From the IMG/VR virus record IMGVR_UViG_3300033143_000672, positions 1 through 33,527 of that record: 33,527 bases of DNA; one strand, 5' to 3'. A program made the position numbers and the translations under genes. Origin of the DNA: a virus. The notes under the pieces are model-generated. The model was not told where the DNA came from and did not search any database. It saw nothing but the letters and a program-made list of their open reading frames with translations. This document shows, piece by piece, positions 1,723-31,679 of this stretch (its first letter is position 1; the number at the start of each line of letters is the position of its first letter).

Positions 1723-2925
1723 ATGAAACTAGGCTTACTAGGAAAGATGTTTGAAAAATTGAATCCAGCCCAAGAAGCCATTATAGGTGATGAGGGAAAT
1801 ACAGATTCTCCTTCAAGTAATATACTTACTAATCAAAAAGCGTATAACCAAATAGATATTGTAAACCGCGGTGTAAATTTAATAGTAGACTCGGCGGCAG
1901 AAGTAAGAATGGATATTGGTGATTCCATGGATTATTTTGATAGCCCAACAAGAATTAGACAAAAGAAGTTAGCAGAATTACTAAACTTTAGACCTAATGC
2001 TTACCAAAATGCTGACGTATTTAAACGTAACATATTTATGGATTTATTAATTGAAGGTGATGCATTTATTTACTTTGATGGCGTGCATATGTTTAATTTA
2101 CCGGCGTGTAATGTAACTATTACTAAGGATAAGAAAACATTTGTAAAGAAATATAGCTATGCAGATAAAGATTTTCAACCAAATGAAATTATACATATTA
2201 GAGAAAACTCTAGTGATACAATTTATGCAGGCACAGCTAGATTAGATGCAGCTAAAAAGAATATCGAATTATTAAATAGTTTAATTGATTTTCAAAAGAA
2301 CTTCTTTGATAATTCAGCAATACCAGGAATTATACTTACTACACCAAATCCTCTTTCAGAAAGAGTAAAAAATAGAATGGTAATGAGTTGGATGTCTAAG
2401 TATAACCCTAAACGCGGCGGTAAAAGACCTCTTATTTTAGATGGAGAATTTAAAGTAGAATCACTATCTAAATATAACTTTAAAGAATTAGAATTTGCAG
2501 AAAGTATAGTTACTCAAGAAACAGCAATATTAAAAGCATTAGGAGTTCCACCTATTCTTATGGATTCCGGGAATAATGCGAATATAAATCCAAACTTAAG
2601 AATGTTTTATATAACAAATGTAATGCCACTATTTAATAAATTAGTACAAGCATTAGAATTATATTTTGGATATGATATTAAAGCAGTAACACAAGATGTA
2701 TTAGCTTTAAGACCCGAATTAAAAGAATTACAAAGTTATCTTACTGGATTAACGAATGCAGGGATAATAACAGTAAATGAAGCAAGAACTGAAATAAGAT
2801 ATGAAAAAAGTAAAGAAGCACACGCAGACAAACTAATAATACCTGCAAATATAGCTGGTAGTGCTGTAGACCCTACACAGGGTGGCGCACCAAAGAAAGA
2901 ACCAAAAGATGGGGATAAAGAGTAA
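1723..2925 (+). CDS. Portal protein (HK97 family)
   Basis: The 400-residue product matches the HK97-type phage portal in length and pattern. It would form the dodecameric ring at one head vertex that serves as DNA entry and exit channel and docks terminase and the connector. Visible signs are an N-terminal segment NRGVNLIVDSAAEV, the core LLIEGDAFIYFD, an FQPNEIIHIRENSSDTIYAGTA-like stretch with an (A)KKNIELLN helix after it, and the characteristic ETAILKALGVPPILMD segment followed by NPNLRMFYITNVMPLF. The C-terminus is a charged, flexible tail (PKKEPKDGDKE). AAGGA at 1711-1715 supports the ATG at 1723. Its TAA stop shares one base with the ATG of the protease/capsid gene, so the two are translationally coupled. 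Terminase is not in the window and would lie further left. Confidence 0.92.
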   Translation: MKLGLLGKMFEKLNPAQEAIIGDEGNTDSPSSNILTNQKAYNQIDIVNRGVNLIVDSAAEVRMDIGDSMDYFDSPTRIRQKKLAELLNFRPNAYQNADVFKRNIFMDLLIEGDAFIYFDGVHMFNLPACNVTITKDKKTFVKKYSYADKDFQPNEIIHIRENSSDTIYAGTARLDAAKKNIELLNSLIDFQKNFFDNSAIPGIILTTPNPLSERVKNRMVMSWMSKYNPKRGGKRPLILDGEFKVESLSKYNFKELEFAESIVTQETAILKALGVPPILMDSGNNANINPNLRMFYITNVMPLFNKLVQALELYFGYDIKAVTQDVLALRPELKELQSYLTGLTNAGIITVNEARTEIRYEKSKEAHADKLIIPANIAGSAVDPTQGGAPKKEPKDGDKE

Positions 2926-4907
2926 TGACAAATAAACATTTTGAAGTAATTTCTAACTTTAAAGTAAAAGCGTCAGATGATGGCAAAGATACTATAAAGA
3001 TAGAAGGTTATGCCAATACTACTACTACTGATCGATCTGGTGATATTATTATTGAGGAAGCATGGTCTAAGGGAGGAATGGATAATTATCTAAAGAATCC
3101 TATAGTTTTAGCTTACCACAAACATGATCAACCTATTGGAGAAGTAACAGGGTATGGTGTAAGTAATAAAGGGCTACATGTTGTAGCTGAAATAAGTAAA
3201 GCGGCTGGTGATGTTTACGATCTTGTAAAAGATGGAATATTAAAAGCGTTTTCCGTAGGTTTCCGCGTTAAAGACGCCGAATACGATGTGGACACCGATC
3301 TCTTTGTTATAAAAGACTTAGAGTTATATGAAATTTCCGTAGTTAGTATACCGGCAAATGCCGAATCTTTGTTTTCAGTAGCAAAGTCATTTACTACTGA
3401 AGAAGATTGTTTAGAATACAAAAAATCATTTAATATAAGTCAGAATGAAGCTGACAATAGTCAGGCAGAAACTGACAATATAGGAGACACGAAAGTGACT
3501 GAAAAGAAGAAAGAAGAAGTTTCTTTAACACCAGAACAATTAGCAAAGATTACTGCAGATGCGGCAACTAAGGCTGTAGCAGAAGCACTAGCTAATAAGG
3601 CTGCTGAAGAAGCAAAAGAAAAGGCAGCATTAGAAGCTGCAGAAAAAGTAAAACTAGCTGCAATTTCAGCTGGCGAAAGTGGAGCTGAAAGACTTATTAA
3701 AGAAGTTGAAGAACGTTTTGCTGCAACAACTAAGACTCAAGAAGATGCGCTAGAAGGTTTACGCACAGAACTTGCAGAAAAGAACGCTGAAATTTTAGCG
3801 GTTCAATCTGGTAAGATGAGTTTCGAAGATAAGGGTGCAGCTAAAGCAAATGTTACAAATAAGCAAGTAGATAACGCTGTATTACTTGCAAAAATTATGG
3901 GTAAATCAGTTGATCAAACTAAGTTTGGTGCTAATCTTATAGAGAAAGCCAGCGTAGGTGCTCATTTAGCTAGCATGACTTCCGATTGGGAAGCAGACTT
4001 CAGTACTCGTATGATGGAAGGTATTAAGGACAAATTAGTTCTAGAACCTCTATTTACTAATCGTATTGATATGACTGCTCGTACAATGAACTTTCCATAT
4101 AATCCAGAAGCAGGCTATGCAGGATGGATCGCAACAGCTAATCTAAGAAGTAATAACTTAGGTTCTAGTGCATCTTCAAGTACTGGCGAAAATGTAGATC
4201 ATTTACTTACTGAAATTTCAATAACTGCTGATAAATTAGCAGCTAAAGAATATCTTGGTTATGAAGAAGAAGAAGATTCAATCTTACCTATTCTTTCTAT
4301 TATACAAGGGGCTGCAGAACGTAGAATGGCTCGTACAATAGATACTGAAATTTTACGCGCTAATGCGGGTGCTGAAACTGTTTCTGGAACAGGTACCGCA
4401 CCAACTACTTTTAATGGTATATGCGTAATAGCAGATGACGTTGCAGGTGCAGCTATGGAAATAGCACAAGCTACAACGGGTGTAACTTCAGTAGCAGATC
4501 TACAAACAATGCGTAGAAATATGGGTGTTTGGGGTCTTCAACCTTCAGAATTAGTTTACATTGTAAACCAGAAGACATATTTCGACCTATTAGAAGATCC
4601 TGATTTCCGTACTATGGACTTAGTAGGTGCTAATGCAACTATTCTATCTGGACAAATTGGTAGCTGTAACGGTTCCCCCGTAATTGTTTCAGATAGTTTT
4701 GATACAGTAGCATCTAGTGCTTATGGTGCAGTATGTGTTAATGTAAGAAACTTCTTATATGGTACACTACGTGGACTAACTGTAGAACGTGATAGAAATA
4801 TCGAAGATCAAAAGAATATTATAGTAGTAACAAAACGTATTGGGTTTACTCCTATTACAGCAGCTACAGCAACACAGTCAGCTACTTCTGTACTAAAATA
4901 TTCTTAA
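2925..4907 (+). CDS. Fused prohead protease, scaffold and HK97-fold major capsid protein
   Basis: One 660-residue frame carries two functions that are usually separate. Residues 1-155 match the HK97-type prohead protease: an NTTTTDRSGD start, an AYHKHDQPIGEV segment with the likely catalytic His (65 or 67), AFSVGF with the likely nucleophile Ser110, and LELYEISVVSIPANAES. Residues about 155-190 are a polar linker. Residues about 198-290 are Ala/Glu/Lys-rich coiled coil, like the delta (scaffold) domain. Residues about 300-660 look like the HK97 capsid fold (GYAGWIA, ENVDHLLTEISITADKLAA, AERRMARTIDTEIL, GTLRGLTVERDRN). The protease would cut away the scaffold during maturation; I cannot place that cut. 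The start overlaps the portal stop (TAATG). An in-frame GTG with its own ribosome site at 3495 probably makes the capsid part separately. Confidence 0.92.
   Translation: MTNKHFEVISNFKVKASDDGKDTIKIEGYANTTTTDRSGDIIIEEAWSKGGMDNYLKNPIVLAYHKHDQPIGEVTGYGVSNKGLHVVAEISKAAGDVYDLVKDGILKAFSVGFRVKDAEYDVDTDLFVIKDLELYEISVVSIPANAESLFSVAKSFTTEEDCLEYKKSFNISQNEADNSQAETDNIGDTKVTEKKKEEVSLTPEQLAKITADAATKAVAEALANKAAEEAKEKAALEAAEKVKLAAISAGESGAERLIKEVEERFAATTKTQEDALEGLRTELAEKNAEILAVQSGKMSFEDKGAAKANVTNKQVDNAVLLAKIMGKSVDQTKFGANLIEKASVGAHLASMTSDWEADFSTRMMEGIKDKLVLEPLFTNRIDMTARTMNFPYNPEAGYAGWIATANLRSNNLGSSASSSTGENVDHLLTEISITADKLAAKEYLGYEEEEDSILPILSIIQGAAERRMARTIDTEILRANAGAETVSGTGTAPTTFNGICVIADDVAGAAMEIAQATTGVTSVADLQTMRRNMGVWGLQPSELVYIVNQKTYFDLLEDPDFRTMDLVGANATILSGQIGSCNGSPVIVSDSFDTVASSAYGAVCVNVRNFLYGTLRGLTVERDRNIEDQKNIIVVTKRIGFTPITAATATQSATSVLKYS
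3482..3497 (+). promoter_or_regulatory. Internal ribosome site and GTG start for the capsid precursor
   Basis: AGGAG at 3482-3486 stands eight bases before GTG at 3495-3497. The GTG is in frame with the 660-residue fusion (codon 191), exactly between the protease part with its linker and the coiled-coil scaffold. Other genes here use the same AGGAG-type sites, and GTG starts occur at 9715 and 17478. Confidence 0.65.
3495..4907 (+). CDS. Nested frame: scaffold-major capsid precursor alone
   Basis: Starting at the internal GTG gives a 470-residue product with an N-terminal charged coiled coil (about 100 residues) and then the HK97-fold capsid domain. This is close to the layout and size of ordinary HK97-type capsid precursors with a delta domain. 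A capsid needs hundreds of shell subunits but few protease copies, so a separate strong start inside the fused gene would set the ratio. This is comparable in principle to the nested C/Nu3 genes of lambda. The site and frame are seen directly; that it is used is inference. The alternative is that only the full fusion is made and the protease cleaves itself away. Two hairpins follow the stop. Confidence 0.6.
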   Translation: MTEKKKEEVSLTPEQLAKITADAATKAVAEALANKAAEEAKEKAALEAAEKVKLAAISAGESGAERLIKEVEERFAATTKTQEDALEGLRTELAEKNAEILAVQSGKMSFEDKGAAKANVTNKQVDNAVLLAKIMGKSVDQTKFGANLIEKASVGAHLASMTSDWEADFSTRMMEGIKDKLVLEPLFTNRIDMTARTMNFPYNPEAGYAGWIATANLRSNNLGSSASSSTGENVDHLLTEISITADKLAAKEYLGYEEEEDSILPILSIIQGAAERRMARTIDTEILRANAGAETVSGTGTAPTTFNGICVIADDVAGAAMEIAQATTGVTSVADLQTMRRNMGVWGLQPSELVYIVNQKTYFDLLEDPDFRTMDLVGANATILSGQIGSCNGSPVIVSDSFDTVASSAYGAVCVNVRNFLYGTLRGLTVERDRNIEDQKNIIVVTKRIGFTPITAATATQSATSVLKYS

Positions 4908-4919
4908 AATAAAATAATA

Positions 4920-4943
4920 GTGATCCTATCTTGGATTACTTTT
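4920..4943 (+). terminator. Weak hairpin terminator after the capsid gene
   Basis: Arms 4920-4926 and 4933-4939 pair over seven positions with one G-T wobble around a six-base loop, followed by TTTT at 4940-4943. It is the first of two hairpins in the gap after the capsid stop and weaker than the second. Confidence 0.4.
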
Positions 4944-4964
4944 GGGCTACTTAACTTTGGCTTA

Positions 4965-4993
4965 GGGTGGGGACTTCGGTCCCCCCCATTTTT
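4965..4993 (+). terminator. Intrinsic terminator with cUUCGg loop after the capsid gene
   Basis: A GC-rich stem (left arm about 4966-4974, right arm 4979-4987, one mismatch or bulge at T4968) closes on a TTCG loop flanked by C4974 and G4979, the very stable UUCG tetraloop form. TTTTT at 4989-4993 follows. This is a textbook rho-independent terminator, placed to end the portal-capsid transcript or reduce read-through into the connector gene. Confidence 0.85.
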
Positions 4994-5011
4994 AAATAAA
5001 AAAGGAAAACC

Positions 5012-5605
5012 ATGTCAATATTATCATTACAAACATATAAAACATACAAAGGTATCAACAGTGATACTGAAGATGCAAAGACTATAGGAATTGTTAATTC
5101 TGTAAATAGTTTTATAGAATCTTACTGCAATAGGAAGTTTACGGATTATTATTCTACTAATAAAGTAGAATACTTTGACGGGGTAAATAGCCCTGACATT
5201 TACCCTAAAGTATTCCCTCTTGTAGAAGTAGTGTCTATAAAAGTATCTACCGATGGTGGGGAGACTTACCCTACAACTTTAGAAAAATACACTGATTATA
5301 CAATAGATACAAATAACGATAGAATAGTATCTTCATACCCAGCTTATATTACAGGATACTTTGTAAACTCATCATACCCTATTAACAGCTTGCAGCTGAC
5401 ATATAAGGGTGGATATCAAGATGTACCTGAAGACTTAGTTCTTGCAGGCGTGAATTTAGTAGAATACTTTTTAGGTGAAGATTATAACCCTAAGAAATCT
5501 ACTGGAAGTTCCAGTATGGAAACACAGGTTCCGGACTTCACAGCTAGACTACCTGCTCACATACGTAGAGTATTAGAGCACTACAGAGATTTTAATTATG
5601 GGTAG
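5012..5605 (+). CDS. Head-tail connector (gp6-like adaptor)
   Basis: The 197-residue protein follows the capsid gene, where HK97-type phages place the connector that binds under the portal. The N-terminal part is helical and includes VNSFIESYCNRKF, close to a pattern common in gp6-like connectors. A beta-rich middle and a Y-K-G-G-Y motif (LQLTYKGGYQDVPEDL, about residues 128-143) lead into a C-terminal helix that ends HIRRVLEHYRDF. AAGGA at 5001-5005 supports the ATG. Its stop lies inside the next gene (8-base overlap), so the two are probably coupled. Assignment rests on motif pattern and position. Confidence 0.72.
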   Translation: MSILSLQTYKTYKGINSDTEDAKTIGIVNSVNSFIESYCNRKFTDYYSTNKVEYFDGVNSPDIYPKVFPLVEVVSIKVSTDGGETYPTTLEKYTDYTIDTNNDRIVSSYPAYITGYFVNSSYPINSLQLTYKGGYQDVPEDLVLAGVNLVEYFLGEDYNPKKSTGSSSMETQVPDFTARLPAHIRRVLEHYRDFNYG

Positions 5606-6983
5606 TAAATTGCCAAAGGCAATTCATATGGAAATGGAACTCCTACTAAAAGAGAATACAAGAAACTTATTAAATAGAGCTGATTCTCATGTATTATATT
5701 TAACACCAGATTCTATAAGAAAAAATAACCCGGAACTTAATAAATTAAACCAGAAAGATTTTGCTTTTGTATATAGTAAGTTTTTAGGTGCTGTAGGGAC
5801 TGCACCCGGAGTTACACCATTACCTAACTCAAAGGATAAGCTTTTAGATAAAGTCTATTATGTTAAAAATGGTGATAATATGATGCTAGTATCTATAGGG
5901 GATAGAAATAATTATAAACCTATAGCTGAAAAATTAAGTGCAGCGGTAAAGTCTTTCACCAGAGTGGATAAAAAGACGGGAAACACTGATATAGAACAAA
6001 TACTTGCAAAATATAATACTTCAGTAGAATCGGCATTTTACAAACCAAGCGAAAGCAAGCAAGAAAAAGGCTTCTCTGATTTATCTACGTCAGGGGTAGA
6101 CGTAGGGCATATTGGGGCCGCGCACGCAAGATCAGGAAATAGGGGTAGAGGTACACAAGGAGCTTCTTCATCCTCCGGATACACTTTTGGATTACTACAC
6201 GAAGTAGCAGATGCCAACAAATTGAAAGAAGCCAAAATTCTAATTAATAGAGCATATGAAAGATTAGGAACAATACATACCCCATTTACAACTGATCTAA
6301 ATAAAGAGTTTAAAACTAATTTAGCTAATTTAGGTATTAGCTATGTGTTAACCATACCACAACATTGGACGCTAAATCAAAAAAGGCTTGGAACTCTAGA
6401 AGGGAAAATAGTAAGAAACCTAGCATGGAGTTTAAAAAGATTAGCAGATAAACCGGGTTCACGTTCTTTTAACCAACATATAGACTATGTTATAAAAGAA
6501 GCTGCATATGGTAGAAAAGCTAGAAATTCTACTTTAAGAAAGAAATCTAAAGGTAGTATTACTAATAAAATAAAAATACCTAAAACAGGGAAAATACCTA
6601 AGATACCAATTAAAAAGGGAAAGAGGAAATCAAGAGTTGTCAGAGATTTTGATGTTATAGGTATACAATCTTTAATCAATGCATCTTTAGCTATTAAGGT
6701 TAAAGATGAGCTGGGTGATGCAGGTGATCCACCTATACGTTTAAGAAATCAAACTGGTAGATTTGCGGAGTCTGCAAAACTACTAACGTTAACACGAGCA
6801 CACGCAGGGATATTACTAGGTACATATACCTACCAAAGAAATCCTTATGATACATTTTTACCAGGTGGAAGACTTGGTACAAAACAACGCGATCCGCGAT
6901 TATATATTGAAGGAGCAATACGCGAAATAGCAATACAATTACTGCGAAATAAGTTTCCAGGTATTGCATTAGAGTTAAAATAG
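5598..6983 (+). CDS. Neck-region structural protein, function unknown
   Basis: This 461-residue protein starts inside the connector gene. It sits where head-closure or tail-completion proteins are encoded but is much longer than those usually are (about 100-200 residues). A basic, Lys/Arg-rich low-complexity region runs about residues 300-350 (repeated KIPK/KGK blocks). The C-terminal segment (YQRNPYDTFLPGGRL, then RDPRLYIEGAIREIAI) looks like a conserved module, possibly the part that contacts the connector. Residues about 155-200 contain VDVGHIGAAHARSGNRGRG, a His/Gly/Arg-rich loop. I do not recognise an enzyme fold. Virion neck protein is inferred from position between connector and tail terminator. 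Confidence 0.6.
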   Translation: MGSKLPKAIHMEMELLLKENTRNLLNRADSHVLYLTPDSIRKNNPELNKLNQKDFAFVYSKFLGAVGTAPGVTPLPNSKDKLLDKVYYVKNGDNMMLVSIGDRNNYKPIAEKLSAAVKSFTRVDKKTGNTDIEQILAKYNTSVESAFYKPSESKQEKGFSDLSTSGVDVGHIGAAHARSGNRGRGTQGASSSSGYTFGLLHEVADANKLKEAKILINRAYERLGTIHTPFTTDLNKEFKTNLANLGISYVLTIPQHWTLNQKRLGTLEGKIVRNLAWSLKRLADKPGSRSFNQHIDYVIKEAAYGRKARNSTLRKKSKGSITNKIKIPKTGKIPKIPIKKGKRKSRVVRDFDVIGIQSLINASLAIKVKDELGDAGDPPIRLRNQTGRFAESAKLLTLTRAHAGILLGTYTYQRNPYDTFLPGGRLGTKQRDPRLYIEGAIREIAIQLLRNKFPGIALELK

Positions 6984-7054: not shown

Positions 7055-7735
7055 ATGAATAACCAAGAAATAATAACACAGATAATTGAAGAATTAGAAA
7101 ATACTGTTGGACTTAATTGGCCAAAAAGTAAACGGGGTAAGATTACTAGAGTTAAACTTATAGAGTGCTGGTCTGAATATAGAAATATACAGGATTATGA
7201 ATTTTATGGGTATAAATCTAGAAGAACTGCTAACGGTAGTTACAGATTAATATTTAGTAACTTAAATAAAAATAACCAAAGAATATGGAAAAGTCACATA
7301 TTATACTTATATAATTATAAGTATTGTCATAAGTGCAAAAGTTTGAAACAAATTAATGATTTTAGTGATAATATAACTAGAGAAGATAATAAATGTCAAA
7401 AATGTAAAGTTTGTTCCTCTAATTATGGAAAACAACATTACAGTAATACTATAGAAAAGCAGCATGAGAGAAGCGCTTTATATTACCAATCTAATCAAAA
7501 ATCGGCGTTTGCTAGATCGGCTAAAAGAAGAGCAGCAAAACTAAATAGAACACCTATTTGGTCGGATATTAATAAAATAAAACAAATATATAATGATTGT
7601 CCAAAAGGCTATCATGTTGATCATAAAATACCTTTACAAGGTAAATTAGTTTCTGGATTACACGTACCGGAAAACTTACAATATTTAACTGCAAAGGAAA
7701 ATTTAAGTAAGTCTAATAAGTACGAGGTAATATAA
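7055..7735 (+). CDS. HNH endonuclease, probably a free-standing homing-type mobile gene
   Basis: The 226-residue protein carries a zinc-binding region with Cys91-x2-Cys94 and Cys114/117/120, then a C-terminal HNH nuclease motif: [10 protein letters not shown] (His187, Asp189, His190), Asn207 in PENLQYL and Asn216 in KENLSKSNK. The first 85 residues (Trp, Tyr and Lys-rich) may bind DNA. Such single HNH genes in phages usually nick or cut DNA to spread into related genomes. It interrupts an otherwise collinear head-tail series between the neck and tail terminator genes. It is preceded by a 71-base non-coding leader with RNA pairing and ends one base before the next gene. AAGGAG at 7043-7048 supports the start. 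A DNA-packaging role, as for some head-linked HNH proteins, is less likely given its position away from terminase. Confidence 0.85.
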
Positions 7736-10161: not shown

Positions 10162-10496
10162 CAGTTAAAATGACCAAGGCTCAGTATCTATTAATGTGTG
10201 AACAAATGGGTACTGAGCCTTTGGCCGAAGAAATTCCCGCAGATTATGAGGATTTTCCTTATGCGGTGCAATTAGCAATGAATATTTATTCTATACTACC
10301 AGACCGCTGGGAAGGTATGTCTGGTACGTATATGGGTAAAGACTTAAATATTTTTCCTTATCTATGCAAAGTATATGCTGTAGATTGGGAAACTCAAATT
10401 TTACAATTTGTACTTTTGATTGATAGGATTATATCAGAGATACGAAGTAAAGCGCAGAAGCAGAAGGCAGCTAAAGCAAAAAGGCAAAAAACTTAA
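10098..10496 (+). CDS. Tail assembly chaperone, frameshifted C-terminal part (gpGT-like)
   Basis: This frame is open from just after a stop at 10095-10097. With a -1 slip at 10098-10104 it continues the upstream chaperone as ...DVEN-FYSEQLNLVEAKLQ..., giving a fusion of 260 residues from 9715 to 10496. A later ATG at 10170 could start a 108-residue protein, but it has no ribosome site and would leave an unexplained open frame before it. The C-terminal part contains MTKAQYLLMCEQMGTEP, a helix, and a basic, Lys/Ala-rich end. In lambda the equivalent T domain binds the tail tube subunit while the G domain binds the tape measure. The stop overlaps the ATG of the tape measure (TAATG). Confidence 0.8.
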   Translation, partial: KFYSEQLNLVEAKLQNFYENSTVKMTKAQYLLMCEQMGTEPLAEEIPADYEDFPYAVQLAMNIYSILPDRWEGMSGTYMGKDLNIFPYLCKVYAVDWETQILQFVLLIDRIISEIRSKAQKQKAAKAKRQKT

Positions 10497-10996
10497 TGGC
10501 AAAAGGTGACATAAAAAGAACGTATGAGTTAAAGGTAGTAGCTAAAGGGCTAGAGCAAGTAGTTGCTCAATTAAAAACTTTAAATAAATCTGTAGGTGCA
10601 GATACAAAAGCTAAAACCGAAAATGTAAAAGCCACAGAAAAAGTAAATAAATCTAGAGATAAATGGCTTAGAAAAGAAAAGGGTGTTAGCGGCGCTACTA
10701 GTAATAGCAGCAAAGCATTCTCTAAAATGTCACAAGGAATGACAGGCACTCTTGTGCCTGCATATGCGACTGTAGCCGCAAACGTCTTCGCCTTAACAGC
10801 TGCGTTTGGCGCGCTTAAGCGTGCTGCCGATTTCGAAATTCTTGTTAGCTCTGCTGAAGCTTTCGGGGTTCAAACTGGTAGATCCCTTATAGGTGTTGCT
10901 GAAAATATGAAGAAAATTACTGGTGGGGCTATAAGTATGAAGGAAGCTTTAACCCAAGCTTCTATTGTTTTGATAATAAAACTATTGAGGATTTAG
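10496..10996 (+). CDS. Tape measure protein, N-terminal part before a frame break
   Basis: This 166-residue frame starts at an ATG overlapping the chaperone stop. It shows the typical tape measure start: a basic region, a Lys-rich coiled stretch, and then a hydrophobic segment with ALKRAADFEILVSSAEAFGVQTGRS and ISMKEALTQASI (about residues 142-157). From about residue 159 the translated sequence (VLIIKLLRI) no longer fits the family. The continuing sequence FDNKTIEDLATVAKN is found in the -1 frame from about 10967 and runs into the long downstream frame. No slippery heptamer is present at the join. A lost base in the TTTT run near 10968, or a short deletion of about ten bases, would explain it; a sequencing or assembly error is also possible. 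Confidence 0.8.
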   Translation: MAKGDIKRTYELKVVAKGLEQVVAQLKTLNKSVGADTKAKTENVKATEKVNKSRDKWLRKEKGVSGATSNSSKAFSKMSQGMTGTLVPAYATVAANVFALTAAFGALKRAADFEILVSSAEAFGVQTGRSLIGVAENMKKITGGAISMKEALTQASIVLIIKLLRI

Positions 10997-11049: not shown

Positions 11050-14000
11050 ATGAATAGAGTATTTAAGGGTGCTATTAAAGCAGAGCCTGAACTACTTGAT
11101 GAATTAGGTATTATACTTCGCTTAGACCCTGCCGCACGTAAGTATGCTGCTACACTTGGTAAAACAGCCAAGGAATTAACTACGTTTGAAAAACAACAAG
11201 CCATTGTTAATGAAGTATTAGCACAAGGTAACGAAAAGTTCGCAGAATTTGGAGATATTGATACTAACCCATTTGATAGACTTGCATCCTCTTTTGCAGA
11301 TATTACAGTACATTTAACTACTATGCTTAGTTTACCTATTATTGGTATATTAGAATTTTTTACAGCTAATACAAAAGCGCTTACTGCAGCGATATTACTA
11401 TTTGCAGCATCTATAACTAAAAAAGCGTTTCCTGCACTTTCAAATTTAGGCGGTGCAATGTCTGATTTTCTAGAAAGAAAAACAGCGGGAATAAATAGTG
11501 CATTAGGAAAAATAAGTACTAAGTTAATAGCACTAGGCAAGACTAATAGTAAAGTTACACAAACCTTCGCACAAAATAATGCTAAACTAGGTAAAAGTAT
11601 TCAAGAGTTTGCACAGAAAAGAGTTGAAGCATTACAGAAAGCAGGAAAAACAGTACCAAAGGGAATGCAAGCATTATCCGTGTTACCACCAGGTACTTTA
11701 GAACAATTTAAAAAGGCTTTACAAGTATTAAGAATACCTATTGCAAGACTTAATAATGGGTTAGAATCTATAGGCCTATCTGGTCAAGCATCTGCTGCGC
11801 AGATGGAAGGTTTTGCCGCAGGTGCGCAGAAAGCACTATCTAAAACAGCTGTGCAAGCTAATCTAACAGGTAATATATTTGCTAATATGTTTAATATTAT
11901 TAAGATTGGGGCTTTTCAGGCTACGTCTTCTTTACTAACTTTTTCTAACGCGGTATTAAACTCTACATTTAGTGCTGGAATTAAAACTTGGGAAAATGGA
12001 TTAATGGGCTTTGTTGCCTCCATGAAGAATGCTAGTGCAAAAACTGGATTATTTACTAAATCCTTTTCTTTATTAGGTGCAGGTATAGGTGGTGCTGCAG
12101 CTGGTCTATTACGTATGGTACCTACTATTGCTGGTATTACTATAGCATTCTCTATACTTAGTACTGCGTTTAATTTCTTACGGGATTCTTTTTCTGATAA
12201 TAAAGGTGCAAGGGAAGAATTTACATCCTCATTGGAGTCACAAAGAAAAGTATTAGATAAGACTGCAAAAAGTACTATTTATTATGAAAAAAGTCTAAAA
12301 GGATTACCAAAAACATTAGATAATATAAATAAGCAACTAGAAAACCAAAAAAATAATTTAAGTGAAATACGCGCAGGATTAGATGAACAAATTAGAAGTT
12401 TAGATGCTCTTAAAGGGGTAGGCTTTATATCGAATTTAGCAGATATATTTGGTTTAGGGGATTTTGATGAATTCAAAGACCAATTAGAAGATACAAGTGA
12501 AGCTTTAAAGAAGTTAGGCCTTGACAGAGAGGTCTTAGCAATACAAAGTAAATTTGGTAACGTACTAAGATTAAATGAGGAAGAGGCTCGAGCTTATGCA
12601 ACAGCGTTAGAGGAAGTGTCTAAAAAACATACAAATCTTAAGTCTGCTGCACAAGATGCAAATAAGGCTTTACAAGAAAGTTTTAAGGAATTAAATAAAA
12701 ATCTTGTAGATATGCATGGCTCATTACCTAAATTATCGGCCGTTGAAAAAGGTGTATTAAATTTACGCTCAGGACTTGCAGGACTTGCAGGTGCAGACAC
12801 GGATAAAATAATTTCTGCTTTTGATGAAATAAATACTTTTGGAACAAAAAAATTAGGTATTGAAGATACACTTACTGCGCTATCCAAAGTTACTGTTAAA
12901 TTAAGACCGCTACAAAAAGAACTAGATAAGATATTAGAAAGACGTAAAGAGTTACAAGGTGCTACTACATATGGTGGTATACTGCGAGCTAAAAAAGAAT
13001 TAGGAGAGCTAGACGCACAGCAGCAAGTATTAAATACTAATATAAATATATATGCAAAAGAAAGAGCAGCATTAACAGATATAATAATACAAAAAAGTAA
13101 CGAACAATTAGCTATTTTAGATAGAGAGATTAATGCGGAAAAAGTATTAAATGAAGTTAGACGAGAATTAGCCTTTGCACAAGGTGTTCCTACTAATGAT
13201 TTGGAAAGAAGATTGAAGTTATTACGTGCAGTTACTGAAGCTGAAACTACGTATTTAAAAGATAAAATAAAAGCTACTAGTCTTAGTAATACTCAAGCGG
13301 AAGAATCTATAGCTATACTTGAAAAAACCTTAAAAAGCTTGAACTCTCTATCCAAAAAAGACATAGCTAGTATGTCCCTAGAGGGTCAACAAAGTTTAGA
13401 AACAACTAAACTACAAAAAAATGAAGAACTTAGAAAGACACAATTAGCCCAGTTACAATTAGAAAATAAAATATTAGAAGATAAAAATAGAATAACAGAT
13501 CAGTATATAAGCCAAGCTCAATCTATATATAAAGAATTAGAATCTAATAATGAAGCTTCCAGATTAGGATTAGACTATGCTAAGGAACAAACTAATACTA
13601 TACAAACTAAGTTACTGTTAGCTTTAAATAACGTAGCTAAATCTCAAGGCAAGAATACAGAGAAAGCTAAAGTATGGGCTATGGAACAACTAAAATTATA
13701 CGAGGCAACCTTAAGGTATAAAAATTTAGTTAAGGATATAGGTATATCAGCTAACCTTATTAAAGAGGTTGCTTCTATGCGCAATAAGAACAAGGAACTT
13801 GCTTTTGAAACTCAATTTTTAAAGAATAATAATGCAGAGTTTGTCCAAAGAATAGATTTTGAAGAGCAGCTAGCAGAAGCTGTAGCACAAAGAAAATTAT
13901 TAGAATTAGACGATAAAATATTAGATGCTGCAGACACTGGAGATACAACTTCGGAGTTACAACTATTAAAAGATAGAGAAGCACTAGAAGAAAAAATAGT

Positions 14001-17000
14001 AGCGACTAAAGTTGCAGGTCAAAATAAAATTGCTAACTCATATACAAAAGCTCTAAATACATTAAAAGCCCAAACAACTGTAGCATTAGAACAATTAAAT
14101 CAAGAAAGAAACTTAACTACTGCCGGAAAGGCTAGGTTAGAAGTTGAAAAGAAAATTTTAGCATTTAAATTAGCGTATAAAGACCTTACTAAAGATGAGA
14201 TTAATGACTATATTAAGGCAATTTCAAAATTATCTAATATAAGTTTAGCTGAAGGATTTAAGAAAGAAATAGAGTCTATAACTGATAGTTTTTCAGGGTT
14301 ATCTAATATTATAGGTGAAATGTGGGAAAACTTTAATAACCCAGAAATTGATAATGCTACAGCCGCATTCAAAGCATTATATGATATAGGCCAAAAAGCA
14401 GGGGATAACGTAACTAAAGGTTTTGGGCAAGTAGGTATAGCTGTAGGTAACTTCCAGGAAAAGTTAACACTTGCTAAAGGGGATATGGAAGCAGTATCCG
14501 AAAAAGATAAGTTCGCGTTATTACAAGGCGCTATAGGTGGTATAGCTACTGCAATGGGTGAGGGGTCTAAGGCTGCACAAACTTTAACTTCTATAATGAG
14601 TACTTTAGCAACTATTCAAGCAGCTAGTGCTATAATGCAGCAGGCTACGGGTGGGGATGTTTATTCTGCCTTCGCCAGAATGGCAGCGATGGCTAGTGTA
14701 GTAGCTAGTGTATTAAGTTCTGTTAAGATTGCATTTGGTGGTAGTGTTAGTGGTACAGGTACTTCGGATGCGGAAGCATATGAAAAATCAATTGGACGAC
14801 AAGGGTTAGTAGGTGTGGATATGCAAACTAACTCTTTAGTTGATTCTATTGATTCTTTAGTAGATATTGATACATTATTATTCTCTGCTAGCCATGATTT
14901 ACAAATAGCAATAGTTAGACTAGGTAAATCTTTCGCATCTCTTGGTGGACAAACATATAGAGGATTCGGTGAGTTTGATGAACTTTCTGCAATTAGTGCT
15001 GGAAGATCATTTGGTACTGAAATAAGTGGTGTTGGTAGTTTATTTGGTTGGAACTCAGATTCTTGGACTACAGAGTTCAAGGGTTCTGGTGTGCGCTTCG
15101 CAGCTACCGTAGATTTTGTAGGTGATGAAATAAGAACTAGTTTAGATAGGGCAGAATCATATATTTCTACTTTAGTAACTCATGTAGATAAAGCATGGTA
15201 TAGAGGCGATAGGATTACTACTTACTTTAGAACTTCATTTGCTCAATTACCTGGAGATATTAAAACTTCCCTAACCAAATCTTTAGCATATACTGGTCAA
15301 GTTATTACTGGTTTAGTTGAGACCTTAGGTGGTGGCTTAGAAGTTAATATTAGAGAATTATATCAAAACCTAGATGCTATAAATCTACCTGCATTACAAA
15401 TTAGTCTAGCGGGTAAAACTGCAGAAGAGCAGGGTGACGCAATGGCTGCATTCTTTACTAATTTAACTAATAAAACTATTGGTGAAATTATACCTTGGAT
15501 AACTAAGTTCGCGGTAGCTGGTGAAGAGTTAGCAGATACATTAATAAGGTTAGCGGAAAGAACTATTCAAATAGACAGTATATTTAGTACATTAGATTTA
15601 AGTACTGGTGACTTATTAAAGAGTATAACAAGTGGCAGATCACAATCAGCCCAATTAGAGTTAGTAACTGCATGGCAAGAATCCTTACTTTCTAATTTTA
15701 AAGATACCGATGAGTTTACTACAGTATTCGCAGAATTTGGAGAAACAGTATTTACCGAAGCAGAGCGTACAGAAATAGCTTTAAATCAAGCTAAAAATGT
15801 TGTGGCTTCCGGATTATCTGTATTAACTCAACAGCTAGAAGAAATAGGCAGAACTGACATACTTGAAGGTATTGGCGCTGAACTAACTGTTGATAGTTTA
15901 AGAACTTTATTTGATAGAGCACAATCTGAAGGAATATTTTCACCTACAGATGATGGAAAATGGTGGACTGGTACTACAGGTACTACTACTGACCAAACTG
16001 CAGGACTACTTGCTACAATGTTACAACTAGGTAGTGCAATGAAGAGTGTAACGGACGCTACAATAGCATTATCAGACGAAGTATATAATTTAGAGTTGCG
16101 TTACCTAAGGCAAATAGAAACCTTCGGTTTAATTGGTAAATCTTTAGAATTATTAGAGTTATCATTCAGCTTTGAAGATGCAATAAAAGAGGCCGAAGAG
16201 GCAGGGGCAAGTATTGCCTTAGTAGAACAGTATTATGGGTTAGAAAGATTAGATATAATTAGAAAGTATAATCAAGATATTACTGATAGTATCGAATTAT
16301 CACAAAAGAATGTTAGTGATTCTATTTTTAGTATAGTATCTAACTTCGAAGCTTTTGATAATATAACCTATCAAGGTATTAAGTTAGAAAAAATGGCAAA
16401 TAGATTAGCTAGTAGTTTAGCTAACGCCAGTGGTTTAGATGCCTTTCAAGATATCGTATCTATTGGTGATGAATTAGACTTTGAGGACTTATTTGGAAGT
16501 TTAATACAATTTTCTGATTCTGTGCCTGAATCAATAAGCGAACAGATAGACCTAGTAGGTAATCTGAAAGATGCAGTAATGGATAGATATAATATTGAGA
16601 TAAATGCTATAGAGTCAATAAAGTCTCTAGCCTTAGATATATCTGGGTATTTAAAGGAACTACAAGTTTCAGACTTATCACCACTAACAAATGCTGAGAA
16701 ATTAGCAGAGGCACAATCTCAATTCACCTCTAATATGGCGGATATATTTTCTGATAATGTACAGGATTCTGAGCGTGCTAAGTCTGATTTATTAACTAGT
16801 GCTAATACTTTATTAGAACAAGCTAATTCATTCTGGGCGATAGGTCCTCAATATCAAGAAATATTTAACTATGTAGTTAGCAGTCTACAAGACCTAGATT
16901 CTAGTATACTTGAAGAAATCAATAGATCAGAAGAAGCTATTGCTTTAGAAGGACAAACTGATGTACTAAATAGTATACAGGCACAAACTATATCTCAACT

Positions 17001-17478
17001 ACAGACATTAGATAATATATTGTATAGTTTAGAAGATCAAAATACATTAACTCTTGAAACTGAAATACAAAATCTAGGATTAGAAGTAACAACACATTTA
17101 GACTTTATAACTAATAAGCTACAAAGCTTAAATGATAGTACTTGGGCACCAATACTTAGTGCACTACAGGGTATGAATTCATATAATGTAGGTACACCGT
17201 ATGTACAAAACGATCAAATCGCACAAATACATAAAGGGGAAATGATAATACCTACTGATGTGGCATCTAATATTAGAGATGGGTCTATAGTGAATAATAA
17301 CTCCAATATTACAAATAGCACTTCAAATAATAAAGATGTAGTACAAGCTATACAAACATTAACTGAAGTATTAGCTATAAGTCAAGATGATTTATTAGAG
17401 TCTAGTGAGCAAATTGTTGATTTAACTAAAATCTCCGAAGCTACGCAAAGAAAAATTAATACTGGAGGTATAGTGTAG
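11050..17478 (+). CDS. Tape measure protein, main part
   Basis: The 2142-residue frame continues the interrupted tape measure. The in-frame sequence upstream of its first ATG (about 10967-11049: TIEDLATVAKNASLALGVNLTDA) is clearly coding, so the ATG at 11050 is not the natural start. Joined to the upstream part the protein would be about 2330 residues. It begins with the family signature MNRVFKGAIKAEPELLDELGI, then has hydrophobic segments (about residues 90-120 and 345-380), long heptad-rich coiled coil (about residues 400-1100), a hydrophobic Ala/Gly/Ser stretch (about 1150-1240), and ends with YVQNDQIAQIHKGEMIIP, common near tape measure C-termini. The protein sets tail length and is ejected with DNA. 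By the usual rule of about 0.15 nm per residue, the tail would be near 350 nm. Confidence 0.93.
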   Translation: MNRVFKGAIKAEPELLDELGIILRLDPAARKYAATLGKTAKELTTFEKQQAIVNEVLAQGNEKFAEFGDIDTNPFDRLASSFADITVHLTTMLSLPIIGILEFFTANTKALTAAILLFAASITKKAFPALSNLGGAMSDFLERKTAGINSALGKISTKLIALGKTNSKVTQTFAQNNAKLGKSIQEFAQKRVEALQKAGKTVPKGMQALSVLPPGTLEQFKKALQVLRIPIARLNNGLESIGLSGQASAAQMEGFAAGAQKALSKTAVQANLTGNIFANMFNIIKIGAFQATSSLLTFSNAVLNSTFSAGIKTWENGLMGFVASMKNASAKTGLFTKSFSLLGAGIGGAAAGLLRMVPTIAGITIAFSILSTAFNFLRDSFSDNKGAREEFTSSLESQRKVLDKTAKSTIYYEKSLKGLPKTLDNINKQLENQKNNLSEIRAGLDEQIRSLDALKGVGFISNLADIFGLGDFDEFKDQLEDTSEALKKLGLDREVLAIQSKFGNVLRLNEEEARAYATALEEVSKKHTNLKSAAQDANKALQESFKELNKNLVDMHGSLPKLSAVEKGVLNLRSGLAGLAGADTDKIISAFDEINTFGTKKLGIEDTLTALSKVTVKLRPLQKELDKILERRKELQGATTYGGILRAKKELGELDAQQQVLNTNINIYAKERAALTDIIIQKSNEQLAILDREINAEKVLNEVRRELAFAQGVPTNDLERRLKLLRAVTEAETTYLKDKIKATSLSNTQAEESIAILEKTLKSLNSLSKKDIASMSLEGQQSLETTKLQKNEELRKTQLAQLQLENKILEDKNRITDQYISQAQSIYKELESNNEASRLGLDYAKEQTNTIQTKLLLALNNVAKSQGKNTEKAKVWAMEQLKLYEATLRYKNLVKDIGISANLIKEVASMRNKNKELAFETQFLKNNNAEFVQRIDFEEQLAEAVAQRKLLELDDKILDAADTGDTTSELQLLKDREALEEKIVATKVAGQNKIANSYTKALNTLKAQTTVALEQLNQERNLTTAGKARLEVEKKILAFKLAYKDLTKDEINDYIKAISKLSNISLAEGFKKEIESITDSFSGLSNIIGEMWENFNNPEIDNATAAFKALYDIGQKAGDNVTKGFGQVGIAVGNFQEKLTLAKGDMEAVSEKDKFALLQGAIGGIATAMGEGSKAAQTLTSIMSTLATIQAASAIMQQATGGDVYSAFARMAAMASVVASVLSSVKIAFGGSVSGTGTSDAEAYEKSIGRQGLVGVDMQTNSLVDSIDSLVDIDTLLFSASHDLQIAIVRLGKSFASLGGQTYRGFGEFDELSAISAGRSFGTEISGVGSLFGWNSDSWTTEFKGSGVRFAATVDFVGDEIRTSLDRAESYISTLVTHVDKAWYRGDRITTYFRTSFAQLPGDIKTSLTKSLAYTGQVITGLVETLGGGLEVNIRELYQNLDAINLPALQISLAGKTAEEQGDAMAAFFTNLTNKTIGEIIPWITKFAVAGEELADTLIRLAERTIQIDSIFSTLDLSTGDLLKSITSGRSQSAQLELVTAWQESLLSNFKDTDEFTTVFAEFGETVFTEAERTEIALNQAKNVVASGLSVLTQQLEEIGRTDILEGIGAELTVDSLRTLFDRAQSEGIFSPTDDGKWWTGTTGTTTDQTAGLLATMLQLGSAMKSVTDATIALSDEVYNLELRYLRQIETFGLIGKSLELLELSFSFEDAIKEAEEAGASIALVEQYYGLERLDIIRKYNQDITDSIELSQKNVSDSIFSIVSNFEAFDNITYQGIKLEKMANRLASSLANASGLDAFQDIVSIGDELDFEDLFGSLIQFSDSVPESISEQIDLVGNLKDAVMDRYNIEINAIESIKSLALDISGYLKELQVSDLSPLTNAEKLAEAQSQFTSNMADIFSDNVQDSERAKSDLLTSANTLLEQANSFWAIGPQYQEIFNYVVSSLQDLDSSILEEINRSEEAIALEGQTDVLNSIQAQTISQLQTLDNILYSLEDQNTLTLETEIQNLGLEVTTHLDFITNKLQSLNDSTWAPILSALQGMNSYNVGTPYVQNDQIAQIHKGEMIIPTDVASNIRDGSIVNNNSNITNSTSNNKDVVQAIQTLTEVLAISQDDLLESSEQIVDLTKISEATQRKINTGGIV

Positions 17479-24260: not shown

Positions 24261-24287
24261 CGTAATGCTAGCCTTTTTTATTTATTT
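24241..24287. terminator. Bidirectional terminator between convergent operons
   Basis: Arms 24241-24261 and 24267-24287 are a perfect 21-base inverted repeat around a GTAAT loop. A GGCTAGC core is flanked by A-runs on one side and T-runs on the other, so each strand has a stem followed by T-runs. It overlaps the holin stop and the last bases of the reductase gene, ending both the late (plus) and early (minus) transcripts. Confidence 0.95.
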
Positions 24288-26324
24288 GACAGGACATACT
24301 CCACTAGCACAACCTTCATCATCCAGTTCGCTCTCAAAATCCGTGTTATCCCAGTCTACCTCTACTAATGAATTAAAGTAATCATAAAACTTTTCTTTAT
24401 TTACATACTCTTGTGGTAAATACTCAAACCCTAGGTCTTCTGCACTAACCGTAGGATCATTCTTAAATAAGAAACTAACACCCACATATATATGCCAATT
24501 ATCTAATAACCAATCTACTATCACATCCTTCTCATCCTTAGTATAATAAATTGTATTAGATACATTTTGATCACAATAGTACATCTGTATCTTTTTATAT
24601 CTCTCTAACTGTTGTAGTGCTGTCTCTGTATTAATTTCCAAAGTTTCCATACTACCATCTTTTCTATACACGTCTACTTTTTCAAAATCTCCACCTTCAT
24701 AGTTAACTGGTACACATACTAAAACTCCAGAGTTATCAGAAGGATTACTAATTACAGTATACCCAGCTATACGTAAAGATTCTACTTTAGGGTCATGCTT
24801 ACTAAAATTAATCCAGTTAAATAAATACTTCGCAGAGGGTTTATGCACTCCTTCATATGTATCCATTATCTTACCCAGTGTACCACTTGGTTTAACGGTA
24901 GTAACATTCTTAGGCCATTCAAGTTCTAATTCTTGTGACATTGTACGCGCAGCAGTAACAGCAGAGTATTTCATATTCTTCCAATCATACTCTGTCATAT
25001 CTTCCCGCTTAGCAATCCCTGTTGCTCCTACACCACATAAGCGCAAGAACTCATTATTCTTATGCCAAGATTCCTGTAGAATACCATCACGTAGGTCAAC
25101 TACTGTCTGCCTATAGTTAGCTCTAGCAATTAATGTAGTTGCTTTATGTAATCCTGCTGAATCACCAAAGAACTTTCCTACATCAATCTCTACAAGATTA
25201 CAGAAAGATTTATTTCCAAGTAGTATCTCAGCACAAGGATTTAATCCGGAGAACCAAGGTGCTCTCTTCTTGGCTGTCTGCCCATTAATAAAACCGGGTT
25301 CTGAACCTCCTGCATCTATCATCATCTGAAAGATTTTATCTAGTTCTTCTCTAGGCGGCTTATTGTAAAAAACAATCGAATTATTACTCTGTTGCTTATG
25401 TTTATACCCTTCCTCATAACAGTTACTTTTGAACTTAGCAAATTCTGCCCACTCATCACTATCATATTCCACCAATGCAATTTCTGCACTTCGGCGCGAG
25501 GATAACACTGTACCGAGTAAATTAAGAAGCTCTACTATATCTAACTTGGATAGTAAACCACCTGCGCGGCGATTCATTATCTCCGTGATTTTAACAGCTG
25601 CTTTAGAGTATGGTTCATAACCTGAGCTAATCCACCCATATCCACTTAATCGTCCACCTGCGCCTCGAATTTCACTGAAGTCGAGTACCAATGTGTGAGC
25701 TTTGTATTTTCCAGCCAATATCTTTCCAATAGACTTCGCCCATGACTCCGCGGAGTCCCCAATACTAATAGTCCATACTCCGTCCGTGAATGACTCATCA
25801 TTAGACTCTCTACCTTTTTCATCGTGTCTTCTGGTAGACGGTATAACTTGTATGTTTTGTATAACTTTTCTGAATCCATTTAATGTACCTACTTTAGGGG
25901 TAAACCCTACTCCACAACCCTGCAATAATAGCCAAAATGCATCTACTACGTCATACATTGTTTCTATTTCTGTATGTGAACAATTAAACATAGACGCTTC
26001 TCGTCTTTTAGCTATATCTGTACCACCTAGCCATAATGTTCTTCCAGAAGGTAAGGCCTTACGCTCTAGCATTAATTGTCTCAGTTCTTCTAATTCAAAC
26101 TCTTGTTTATCTGTTAACATTACCCATTCGGATATATCTTCAGTTACATCATGTAACGGCATATTTGGTAATATATTATGAGTTAATGCTCTTTCCCATA
26201 ACCATCTTTGGTGGGTAATTACTCTGTCTATTACCTCATCCCATTCTTCAAATATAGTACCTTCTTTATTTAAAGGTCTACAGTAAGTTCTTCTTGTTAC
26301 AATCTCTGCTCTTATACTAGGCAT
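24282..26324 (-). CDS. Class II (adenosylcobalamin-dependent) ribonucleoside-triphosphate reductase, monomeric
   Basis: The 680-residue enzyme reduces ribonucleotides to deoxyribonucleotides for phage DNA synthesis and needs vitamin B12 but no oxygen or second subunit. It matches the Lactobacillus leichmannii RTPR type. Cys115 in MFNCS and Cys375 form the active-site redox pair. NPCAEILL holds the radical Cys364 and Glu366, with the same 11-residue spacing to Cys375 as Cys408/Cys419 in that enzyme. The C-terminal GCASGVCPVK (Cys672/Cys677) is the thiol relay pair. Other matches are ALPSGRTLWLGGT and TVKPSGTLGK. It directly abuts the dUTPase gene (TAAATG) and is the last gene of the minus operon. 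No thioredoxin is encoded in the window, so host reductants are presumably used. Confidence 0.95.
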   Translation of the reverse strand: MPSIRAEIVTRRTYCRPLNKEGTIFEEWDEVIDRVITHQRWLWERALTHNILPNMPLHDVTEDISEWVMLTDKQEFELEELRQLMLERKALPSGRTLWLGGTDIAKRREASMFNCSHTEIETMYDVVDAFWLLLQGCGVGFTPKVGTLNGFRKVIQNIQVIPSTRRHDEKGRESNDESFTDGVWTISIGDSAESWAKSIGKILAGKYKAHTLVLDFSEIRGAGGRLSGYGWISSGYEPYSKAAVKITEIMNRRAGGLLSKLDIVELLNLLGTVLSSRRSAEIALVEYDSDEWAEFAKFKSNCYEEGYKHKQQSNNSIVFYNKPPREELDKIFQMMIDAGGSEPGFINGQTAKKRAPWFSGLNPCAEILLGNKSFCNLVEIDVGKFFGDSAGLHKATTLIARANYRQTVVDLRDGILQESWHKNNEFLRLCGVGATGIAKREDMTEYDWKNMKYSAVTAARTMSQELELEWPKNVTTVKPSGTLGKIMDTYEGVHKPSAKYLFNWINFSKHDPKVESLRIAGYTVISNPSDNSGVLVCVPVNYEGGDFEKVDVYRKDGSMETLEINTETALQQLERYKKIQMYYCDQNVSNTIYYTKDEKDVIVDWLLDNWHIYVGVSFLFKNDPTVSAEDLGFEYLPQEYVNKEKFYDYFNSLVEVDWDNTDFESELDDEGCASGVCPVK

Positions 26325-26774
26325 TTATTCTGTTCCTGTACTTCCGAAGCCACCTTCTCCACGTTCTGTTTCTGAAAGCTGTTCGTTAGGTATTACTCGT
26401 AATTTATTAAGAGCTACTGGTACTATAATAAGTTGTGCGAATCTATCGTACTGTTTAATCTCTACATCCATATGCCCATCATTAACTAGAAAAACCATAA
26501 GTTCACCTCGATAATCTGAGTCAATACACCCTGCTGTGTTTGCTAACCCTACTCTACTATTACACCCTAAACCACTTCGCGGCAGTATAAGTCCCATGTG
26601 GCGTCTAGGTACTTCTATCTTTACACCAGTATGAACTTTAACTTTTCCACCTTTTGCTAAAGTGAATGTTTCATTGTTAGAGCGCAAGTCCCAACCCGCA
26701 TCCCATGAGTTCTTCTTATATGGCATACATTCTTCGTTATCTAATATTATATTAATACTCGCTCTGCTACTCAA
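26325..26774 (-). CDS. dut: dUTPase (dUTP diphosphatase)
   Basis: The 149-residue protein has all five motifs of trimeric dUTPases: DAGWDL (25-30), PRSGLG (65-70), GCIDSDYRGEL (82-92, catalytic Asp85), RFAQLIIVP (111-119), and the C-terminal RGEGGFGSTG lid (138-147). It hydrolyses dUTP to dUMP, keeping uracil out of DNA and feeding dTMP synthesis. The start is TTG, overlapping the exonuclease stop (TTGA), with GGGAG seven bases upstream. The first in-frame ATG would remove the first beta strand, so TTG is preferred. Placement beside the reductase gives a nucleotide-supply pair. Confidence 0.96.
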   Translation of the reverse strand: MSSRASINIILDNEECMPYKKNSWDAGWDLRSNNETFTLAKGGKVKVHTGVKIEVPRRHMGLILPRSGLGCNSRVGLANTAGCIDSDYRGELMVFLVNDGHMDVEIKQYDRFAQLIIVPVALNKLRVIPNEQLSETERGEGGFGSTGTE

Positions 26775-27598
26775 TTTATTTCTCCCGCTATCTCTTGTAT
26801 ATTTTCTTTACCTATTGCTTCTCTACAATATGTTGGTAAGTCCATTAGTTCATAATTTGTTAATAGTGTTTCTTTAAAATCATTAAGATTCTGCATAAAT
26901 TTTCTATTGTCTGCTATAGGTAGAGCAGCGTAGATATCATATGCAGTACCATACTGCCTTACTAAGTCTTGAGCACGTTTAATGCCAACTCCAGGGACAC
27001 CAGGAACATTATCGCCCTTATCCCCCATAAGTACTTTAATACTTATATGATCTTCAACCTCATAGTCATAATGGCTAGACCAAGTATTTACACTAATCTC
27101 TTTTCTTGTTACAAAGGAGAATCTTGATACTTTATCATTTATCATTAAGTCCCAATCCTTATCAGAACTAATAAGCCAAACATGTTCATAGTTATCTACC
27201 ATCACATCTGCTAAGTAGGCTGCTATATCATCAGCTTCAACACCTTTAAATCTAAATGCGCTATACTGATCTTTCAGCATATCAAAGGCTCTATTAAATT
27301 CATCTAAGAATTCCTTAAAGTCTTGTTCTTCCTGCTCTGTTTGCTTGGCTCGCATCTCTTTTCTATTACCTTTATAGTCTGGATATATAGCTTCTCTATA
27401 TGTAGAGCCACCATCCCCTAAGACTATAACTTTTCCTGCTTTATACGAGCCTGCCAAAGATTGTACTGTCTTTACATATTCTGCTGCAAAGACTTTTCTA
27501 TTTGCATACTTATATCTAAAAGCTAAGTTAAGACCATCTACTACCATCAGATTTTTAAACTTACTTTTATCTGTATATTCTTTAAATTGTTTTCCCAT
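26771..27598 (-). CDS. 5'-3' flap exonuclease (FEN, T5 D15-like)
   Basis: The 275-residue protein matches phage flap endonuclease/exonucleases such as T5 D15 (291 residues). Metal ligands appear in order: Asp21 in VDGLNLAFRY, Asp62 in LGDGGSTYRE, Glu121/Asp123/Asp124 in VEADDIAAYL, Asp146/Asp148 in SSDKDWD, and Asp193/Asp196 in GDKGDNVPG. The helix-hairpin-helix region NVPGVPGVGIKRAQDLV follows, and a basic arch (YPDYKGNRKEMRAK) lies at 72-85. It removes RNA primers and 5' flaps during replication and recombination. The ATG abuts the stop of the upstream nuclease gene, and the stop overlaps the dUTPase start. Confidence 0.94.
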   Translation of the reverse strand: MGKQFKEYTDKSKFKNLMVVDGLNLAFRYKYANRKVFAAEYVKTVQSLAGSYKAGKVIVLGDGGSTYREAIYPDYKGNRKEMRAKQTEQEEQDFKEFLDEFNRAFDMLKDQYSAFRFKGVEADDIAAYLADVMVDNYEHVWLISSDKDWDLMINDKVSRFSFVTRKEISVNTWSSHYDYEVEDHISIKVLMGDKGDNVPGVPGVGIKRAQDLVRQYGTAYDIYAALPIADNRKFMQNLNDFKETLLTNYELMDLPTYCREAIGKENIQEIAGEIN

Positions 27599-28057
27599 TT
27601 ATTTTATAAACTCCACATCCTCATATTTTAGCCAGTCTTCCAACTTAGCTATATAAAATCTCATATCTGCATGTACATAATATGAATATCTGTACTTATA
27701 CATTTTACAAGGTTCTTCTTCAAAAGCTACAAATAGCTTACTTCTATCAAACTTAAATATAAGAAGTGGGTCTTTATCTGTTTGAATTCCTTGTCTAACT
27801 GCTTGTTTCCACCACTCTGTAAGTTGTGGGTCTTTACTCGTTAAAATCTTACTTGTAAAGTGATCGTCTTTGTAATGCTTTACTTCTACACAATAGAAGT
27901 TCTTTTCGTTAGGGATATATAAATCACCCTTTAATCCGTGGGTTGGCGCGAGGGCACCACTTCCTGGTGTACGTTGCCAATTTAGTCCAGTTTTATCTAT
28001 AAGTACTTTCTTAACGGCTGCTTCTGCACGGGCACCCTTTTGTCTACTATCTACCAT
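27599..28057 (-). CDS. PD-(D/E)XK nuclease, Holliday-junction-resolvase-like
   Basis: The 152-residue protein carries a restriction-endonuclease-type core: RQKGARAE with Glu12, a GLKGDLYIP segment with Asp45, and CVEVKHYK with Glu58-x-Lys60. The Arg-x-Lys-Gly-x-x-x-Glu start and TPGSGAL segment are like archaeal Hjc and phage resolvase-type proteins. It probably resolves branched DNA made during recombination and replication, consistent with neighbours SbcC/SbcD and FEN. A VRR-NUC type or general DNA repair nuclease is an alternative. The ATG follows directly on the upstream stop with GGAG just before it. Confidence 0.75.
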   Translation of the reverse strand: MVDSRQKGARAEAAVKKVLIDKTGLNWQRTPGSGALAPTHGLKGDLYIPNEKNFYCVEVKHYKDDHFTSKILTSKDPQLTEWWKQAVRQGIQTDKDPLLIFKFDRSKLFVAFEEEPCKMYKYRYSYYVHADMRFYIAKLEDWLKYEDVEFIK

Positions 28058-31611: not shown

Positions 31612-31628
31612 ATTTTTCTCCAAAAGAG

Positions 31629-31653
31629 AAGAGGCTACGCATTGTAGCCTCTT
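31629..31653 (-). terminator. Hairpin between the SSB and SbcD-side genes
   Basis: AAGAGGCTAC (31629-31638) and GTAGCCTCTT (31644-31653) form ten perfect pairs with a five-base loop. On the minus strand it is followed by CTCTTTTGG, a weak T-run that runs into the next ribosome site. A partial terminator would let SSB be made in excess over the nuclease genes; a processing site is equally possible. Confidence 0.6.
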
Positions 31654-31679
31654 AACTCTATTTTATATTATAACTAAGA

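Follow-up and report, generated by a model that had tools for sequence, protein, structure and literature searches.

A conserved start signal for a putative nested capsid-precursor gene within the protease-capsid fusions of T5-like viruses

We analyzed a 33,527-nucleotide stretch of viral DNA (IMG/VR record IMGVR_UViG_3300033143_000672), termed the window, in which a prohead protease and a major capsid protein are encoded by a single open reading frame. The message of this gene very probably carries two in-frame genes with a common stop codon, one for a 660-aa protease-capsid fusion and the other for a 470-aa capsid precursor, and the two products would co-assemble, placing the protease inside the procapsid. 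A tailed phage uses coat subunits by the hundred but far fewer proteases; if the fused gene had no internal start, each coat subunit of such a virus would carry a protease. Gene callers that forbid nested genes report the fusion alone, as though each subunit did bear the enzyme. The conserved nested start would explain how fusion phages can build a shell, would tell which precursor to express for structural work, and would correct the annotation of a whole family. It would also provide a naturally occurring example of an enzyme attached to shell subunits, with the ratio set by two ribosome sites. The fusion is found in a large family of uncultured T5-like viruses of bacteria, with hundreds of members in IMG/VR. 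Single protease-scaffold-capsid genes were known before, from Gifsy-2, MD8, thaumarchaeal proviruses and actinophage annotations. In the open-access literature that we searched, which does not include the Gifsy-2 paper, a conserved nested start for a coat precursor was not described for any protease-capsid fusion.

Layout of the fused gene and its internal start signal

The fused gene lies at positions 2925-4907 of the plus strand, with its ATG overlapping the stop codon of the portal gene (TAATG), and encodes an S78 prohead protease, a linker, a Delta/scaffold coiled coil and a capsid protein of the T5 pb8 type. The Peptidase S78 domain, residues 11-152 (2955-3380, plus strand), matches the PF04586 profile with 65.8 bits against a curated cut-off of 21 (E=6.6e-18). 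H65 is kept in all 78 representative homologues that cover the position, S110 in 81 of 81, and E136 in all that cover it; from knowledge of the family, we take H65 and S110 to be the catalytic residues. The AlphaFold model predicts a disordered polar linker (residues 173-202; 3441-3530, plus strand) followed by two long helices (residues 203-248 and 254-294; 3531-3806, plus strand) that would form the scaffold/Delta coiled coil. Cleavage is predicted after K341 (3945-3947, plus strand), which aligns with K159 of T5 pb8, leaving a predicted mature capsid protein of 319 aa (residues 342-660; 3948-4904, plus strand), for which profile and fold matches indicate the HK97 fold.

The two ends of the 660-aa frame were assigned to a protease family and a capsid family in PHROGs, and a profile built from 20 homologues matched T5-type capsid proteins in the PDB over profile positions 198-633 (8ho3, E=4.8e-73). 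The best PDB fold matches of the model were the capsid proteins of DT57C and T5, and T4 gp21 for the protease part; the full-length model is of low quality (pLDDT 63, pTM 0.30), and we relied on it solely for disorder, helices and approximate fold matches. A strong terminator-like hairpin, GGGGACTTCGGTCCCC, with a CTTCGG loop is located just 3' of the capsid gene (4969-4984, plus strand), and a GC-rich hairpin-like pattern, crudely defined, was found 3' of the fused gene in 64 of 76 representatives.

A preliminary description of the window had pointed to an AGGAG eight bases before an in-frame GTG at 3495, and these coordinates proved exact: the Shine-Dalgarno (SD) sequence occupies 3482-3486, the spacer 3487-3494 and the GTG, codon 191, 3495-3497, all on the plus strand. 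The two reading options proposed there, a 470-residue product beside the 660-residue form, are both present in the sequence. The nested gene would extend from 3495 to 4907 (plus strand), ending at the stop codon of the fusion, and its product is a putative Delta-capsid precursor, the counterpart of T5 pb8. The proposed position at the protease/scaffold boundary agrees with the AlphaFold model, in which the GTG falls within the predicted disordered linker (pLDDT ~30 at residues 181-200) and the helices begin at residue 203.

Among the 16 internal in-frame ATG, GTG and TTG codons, GTG 3495 ranks first in predicted anti-SD pairing (-7.0 kcal/mol; the next codon has -6.1). This value matches those of the well-formed gene starts in the window, including that of the major tail protein (also -7.0), and compares with -5.5 for the upstream start, ATG 2925. 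GTG is otherwise rare in the fused gene, accounting for one of the 47 other valine codons. In the messages, predicted RNA structure reaches its minimum right at the internal start, an effect partly due to low G+C. Synonymous recoding of the boundary in the window sequence gave an equally strong site in ~0.5% of trials; when recoding was applied by itself to single sequences, many were without significance (median p 0.07); the case rests on conservation. A scan for an internal promoter gave no support, with nine promoter-like matches in 2600-5100 against 8.2 expected.

Comparison with T5 and the proposed two-product mechanism

The close annotated relatives of the fusion are T5-like phages that encode the protease and the capsid protein in two genes. 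T5 pb11 (210 aa) and pb8 (458 aa) are colinear homologues of the fusion and share its protease class, a Delta of similar length and the lysine of the predicted cleavage site. In the alignment the start of pb8 falls only a few residues from the internal GTG, and the T5-like split genes have their own SD at this place. The difference is in gene structure: T5 has two genes with a stop codon between them, whereas in the window a single open frame encloses the start. In the T5 pb8 record cleavage is annotated after K159, and the first 160 residues of the T5 capsid protein are removed (PMC11313276). In the nested product the predicted Delta would span 151 residues and the mature part 319, compared to 159 and 299 in T5; a lysine aligned with K341 is present in 80 of the 81 representatives, and the Delta length is close to that of T5. 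The earlier proposal of a nested capsid-precursor start is thus strongly supported, both by this match to pb8 in overall length, place of the start, extent of Delta and predicted cleavage lysine and by the conservation described below. Six relatives 78-114 kb long have no S78 protease gene and no capsid gene of the T5 pb8-type family other than the fused gene, so both functions are most likely provided by the fused gene; the window's own phage, of which the window is probably a fragment, could in principle carry a second gene outside it.

In the mechanism that we propose, ribosomes starting at ATG 2925 would produce the 660-aa protease-Delta-capsid fusion, and ribosomes entering at the AGGAG/GTG site (3482-3497), in unfolded RNA coding for the disordered linker, would produce the 470-aa Delta-capsid precursor. 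The precursor, as the equivalent of T5 pb8, would form most of the shell. Fusion subunits would join it through the common Delta and capsid parts, bringing the protease into the procapsid, where it would cut after K341 in both forms and remove Delta. We infer from the sequence that both proteins are made in infected cells. The proposed delivery of the protease as a fused subunit agrees with the architecture and with the single gene copy. A shell-to-protease ratio derived from SD strength is not claimed: the internal SD was stronger in 30 and weaker in 38 of 76 representatives, and across the family the mean strength of the upstream SD, a value biased by being the best of several candidates, did not fall below that of the internal SD. 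SD strength thus does not mark the internal start as the dominant one.

It is also conceivable, although we consider it unlikely, that the nested start is used and the fusion is no shell subunit, cleaving itself early in the linker to give free protease and free coat, so that the fusion would merely couple their synthesis. T5 indeed makes the protease and the coat as separate proteins, and the linker is long and predicted to be disordered. However, the fusion has long been retained in one large clade, which suggests a use of being joined, no cleavage motif was identified in the linker, and we prefer co-assembly of the fused and nested products. The conservation presented in the next section speaks for the use of a start, not for the co-assembly of two products.

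Conservation of the boundary start among homologous fusions

The preliminary description had proposed a check of conservation in homologous fusions, which we performed on homologues taken from IMG/VR and GTDB genomes. In total, 165 loci with the fusion in one open frame (the window included, and some contigs fetched twice) were reduced to 81 representatives with <80% identity. A boundary site was defined as an SD core of 4-5 bases followed, at a spacing of 4-11 nt, by an in-frame ATG, GTG or TTG at aligned residues 160-215. Such a site was kept in 79 of the 81 representatives. Equally long segments (56 residues) elsewhere in the gene contained an SD-start in 0-8 of 81, and the remaining two frames of the boundary segment in 8 of 81 and 0 of 81, respectively. 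In an earlier set of 44 sequences, too, the boundary held the best internal SD-start of the whole gene 33 times, against an expectation of 3.7. L033 and L034, the two representatives lacking a boundary site, carry an SD-start near residue 245, ~50 residues further on.

The boundary signal varies by clade in its sequence, spacing, codon, position and encoded residues, being aaaggagaaaaaactGTG in the clade with residues KGEKT-V, gtgaggagactttaATG with SEETL-M, aaggaatggaatATG with KEWN-M, ttggagaaacacATG with LEKH-M and aggagtttatacatATG with QEFIH-M. That the residues, spacing, codon and position turn over while the signal stays argues for selection on the RNA signal. In addition, all eight representatives with a valine at the boundary encode it by GTG, a codon with a background share of only a few per cent; the product probability is 1.8e-11, for sequences that are related and not strictly independent. 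The turnover of everything but the signal is a stronger argument than probabilities from related sequences, and the comparison strongly supports an internal start under strong selection.

We give very little credence to the possibility that the site is an unused vestige, where a once separate capsid gene used to start before the stop codon was lost, with all coat made as fusions and the protease clipped later. The T5-like relatives, whose protease and capsid genes are split, have an SD and ATG at the matching place, and the tree, which has the split pairs on one branch and the fusions on the other side, fits such a history with a single gene-structure change that could have gone in either direction. 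An unused site would decay, yet the SD and start persist in nearly all homologues, diverged to 33-55% identity, and they stayed while the encoded residues and the exact position changed. Hardly any probability attaches to a conserved peptide, such as a cleavage site or a linker motif, that is spelled with an SD-like sequence by chance: residues are alike within single clades (KGEKTV, SEETLM), and flanking residues are conserved in the Gifsy-2 family as well, but between clades they are wholly different while the RNA signal is constant, always in frame and 4-11 nt from ATG or GTG, and the rare GTG codon is chosen for valine.

A second signal was observed in part of the family. Loci L013-L022 have an SD-ATG at aligned residues 172 and 244; in these loci and in L033 and L034, the later SD-ATG, which lies ~50 residues past the boundary and within or after the coiled coil, is added to the boundary start or replaces it.

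Lambda C/Nu3 and other protease-capsid fusions

A nested scaffold gene is known in lambda (Shaw and Murialdo, 1980, as cited in PMC8508860). The window resembles lambda C/Nu3 in having an in-frame nested gene with a common stop and a start at the protease/scaffold boundary, which would give protease-tagged and untagged forms. Lambda Nu3, however, is scaffold only, with the coat gene E separate, whereas the nested product of the window carries the coat domain; it is therefore a variant of the lambda C/Nu3 kind rather than a member. The lambda C protease, in turn, belongs to S49 and is unrelated to the S78 protease of the window. In a scan of lambda gene C (L288, lambda 4300-5800), the strongest nested SD-start was the ATG at codon 309 (aggagggcgaATG), giving a product of 131 residues; Nu3 is annotated at codon 239, without an SD. 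We take 131 residues to be the size of gpNu3 used in biochemical work, and with this match the scan serves as a positive control.

Protease, scaffold and capsid are encoded by a single gene in Gifsy-2 (Effantin, 2010, according to its title) and in MD8-like phages as gp5 (PMC8508860), and the latter paper does not mention an internal start. These fusions combine a ClpP-type protease with a lambda/Mu-type coat, in contrast to the S78 protease and T5-like coat of the window, in an architecture that is alike. A boundary SD-ATG221 was present in 17 of 17 representatives of the Gifsy-2 family, and a boundary SD-ATG was also found in the MD8-like BR200a. The flanking residues E-E/D-F are conserved as well in the Gifsy-2 family, so its case is weaker taken alone.

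The actinophage Barebow protein is annotated as a 'major capsid and protease fusion protein'. All five sequences of its family have a boundary SD-start, with a switch from gaGG..ATG173 to AAGGAG..GTG167, and RcKai, a single sequence, has one at ATG214; the database records of the Barebow and RcKai fusions contain no nested product. In these fusions and in the S78-capsid fusions of thaumarchaeal proviruses (PMC6563490), the protease is joined to the coat as in the window, and the coat parts are not close relatives. We lean towards a general rule, that where a prohead protease is fused to a scaffold-bearing coat, in several lineages (T5-like S78, Gifsy-2/MD8 ClpP, Barebow-type and RcKai), a boundary internal start would be kept by selection, providing a protease-free precursor together with protease-tagged subunits that bring the enzyme inside.

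We also inspected further long frames containing an S78 domain. L113 showed no strong boundary start, and L107 and L108 do not look like capsid fusions. At L111 (5809-7047), a Glu-rich coiled-coil scaffold follows an S78 protease in one frame, and a very strong internal SD-ATG, aaggaggtgacaaaATG, marks the boundary at codon 217; this distant S78 protease-scaffold fusion appears to contain a nested scaffold gene resembling Nu3.

The window probably represents a piece of a larger phage related to T5. Its minus strand carries T5-like replication genes at 24282-33495, encoding a ribonucleotide reductase, a 5'-3' exonuclease, an SbcC/SbcD-like nuclease and a helicase. Successive parts of the tape-measure profile phrog_3779 match two open reading frames (10496-10996 and 11050-17478), and the tape-measure gene may be split or frameshifted. 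Between the head and tail genes lies a gene for an endonuclease VII-like protein (7055-7735), which has a strong SD and is perhaps an insertion in the structural block.
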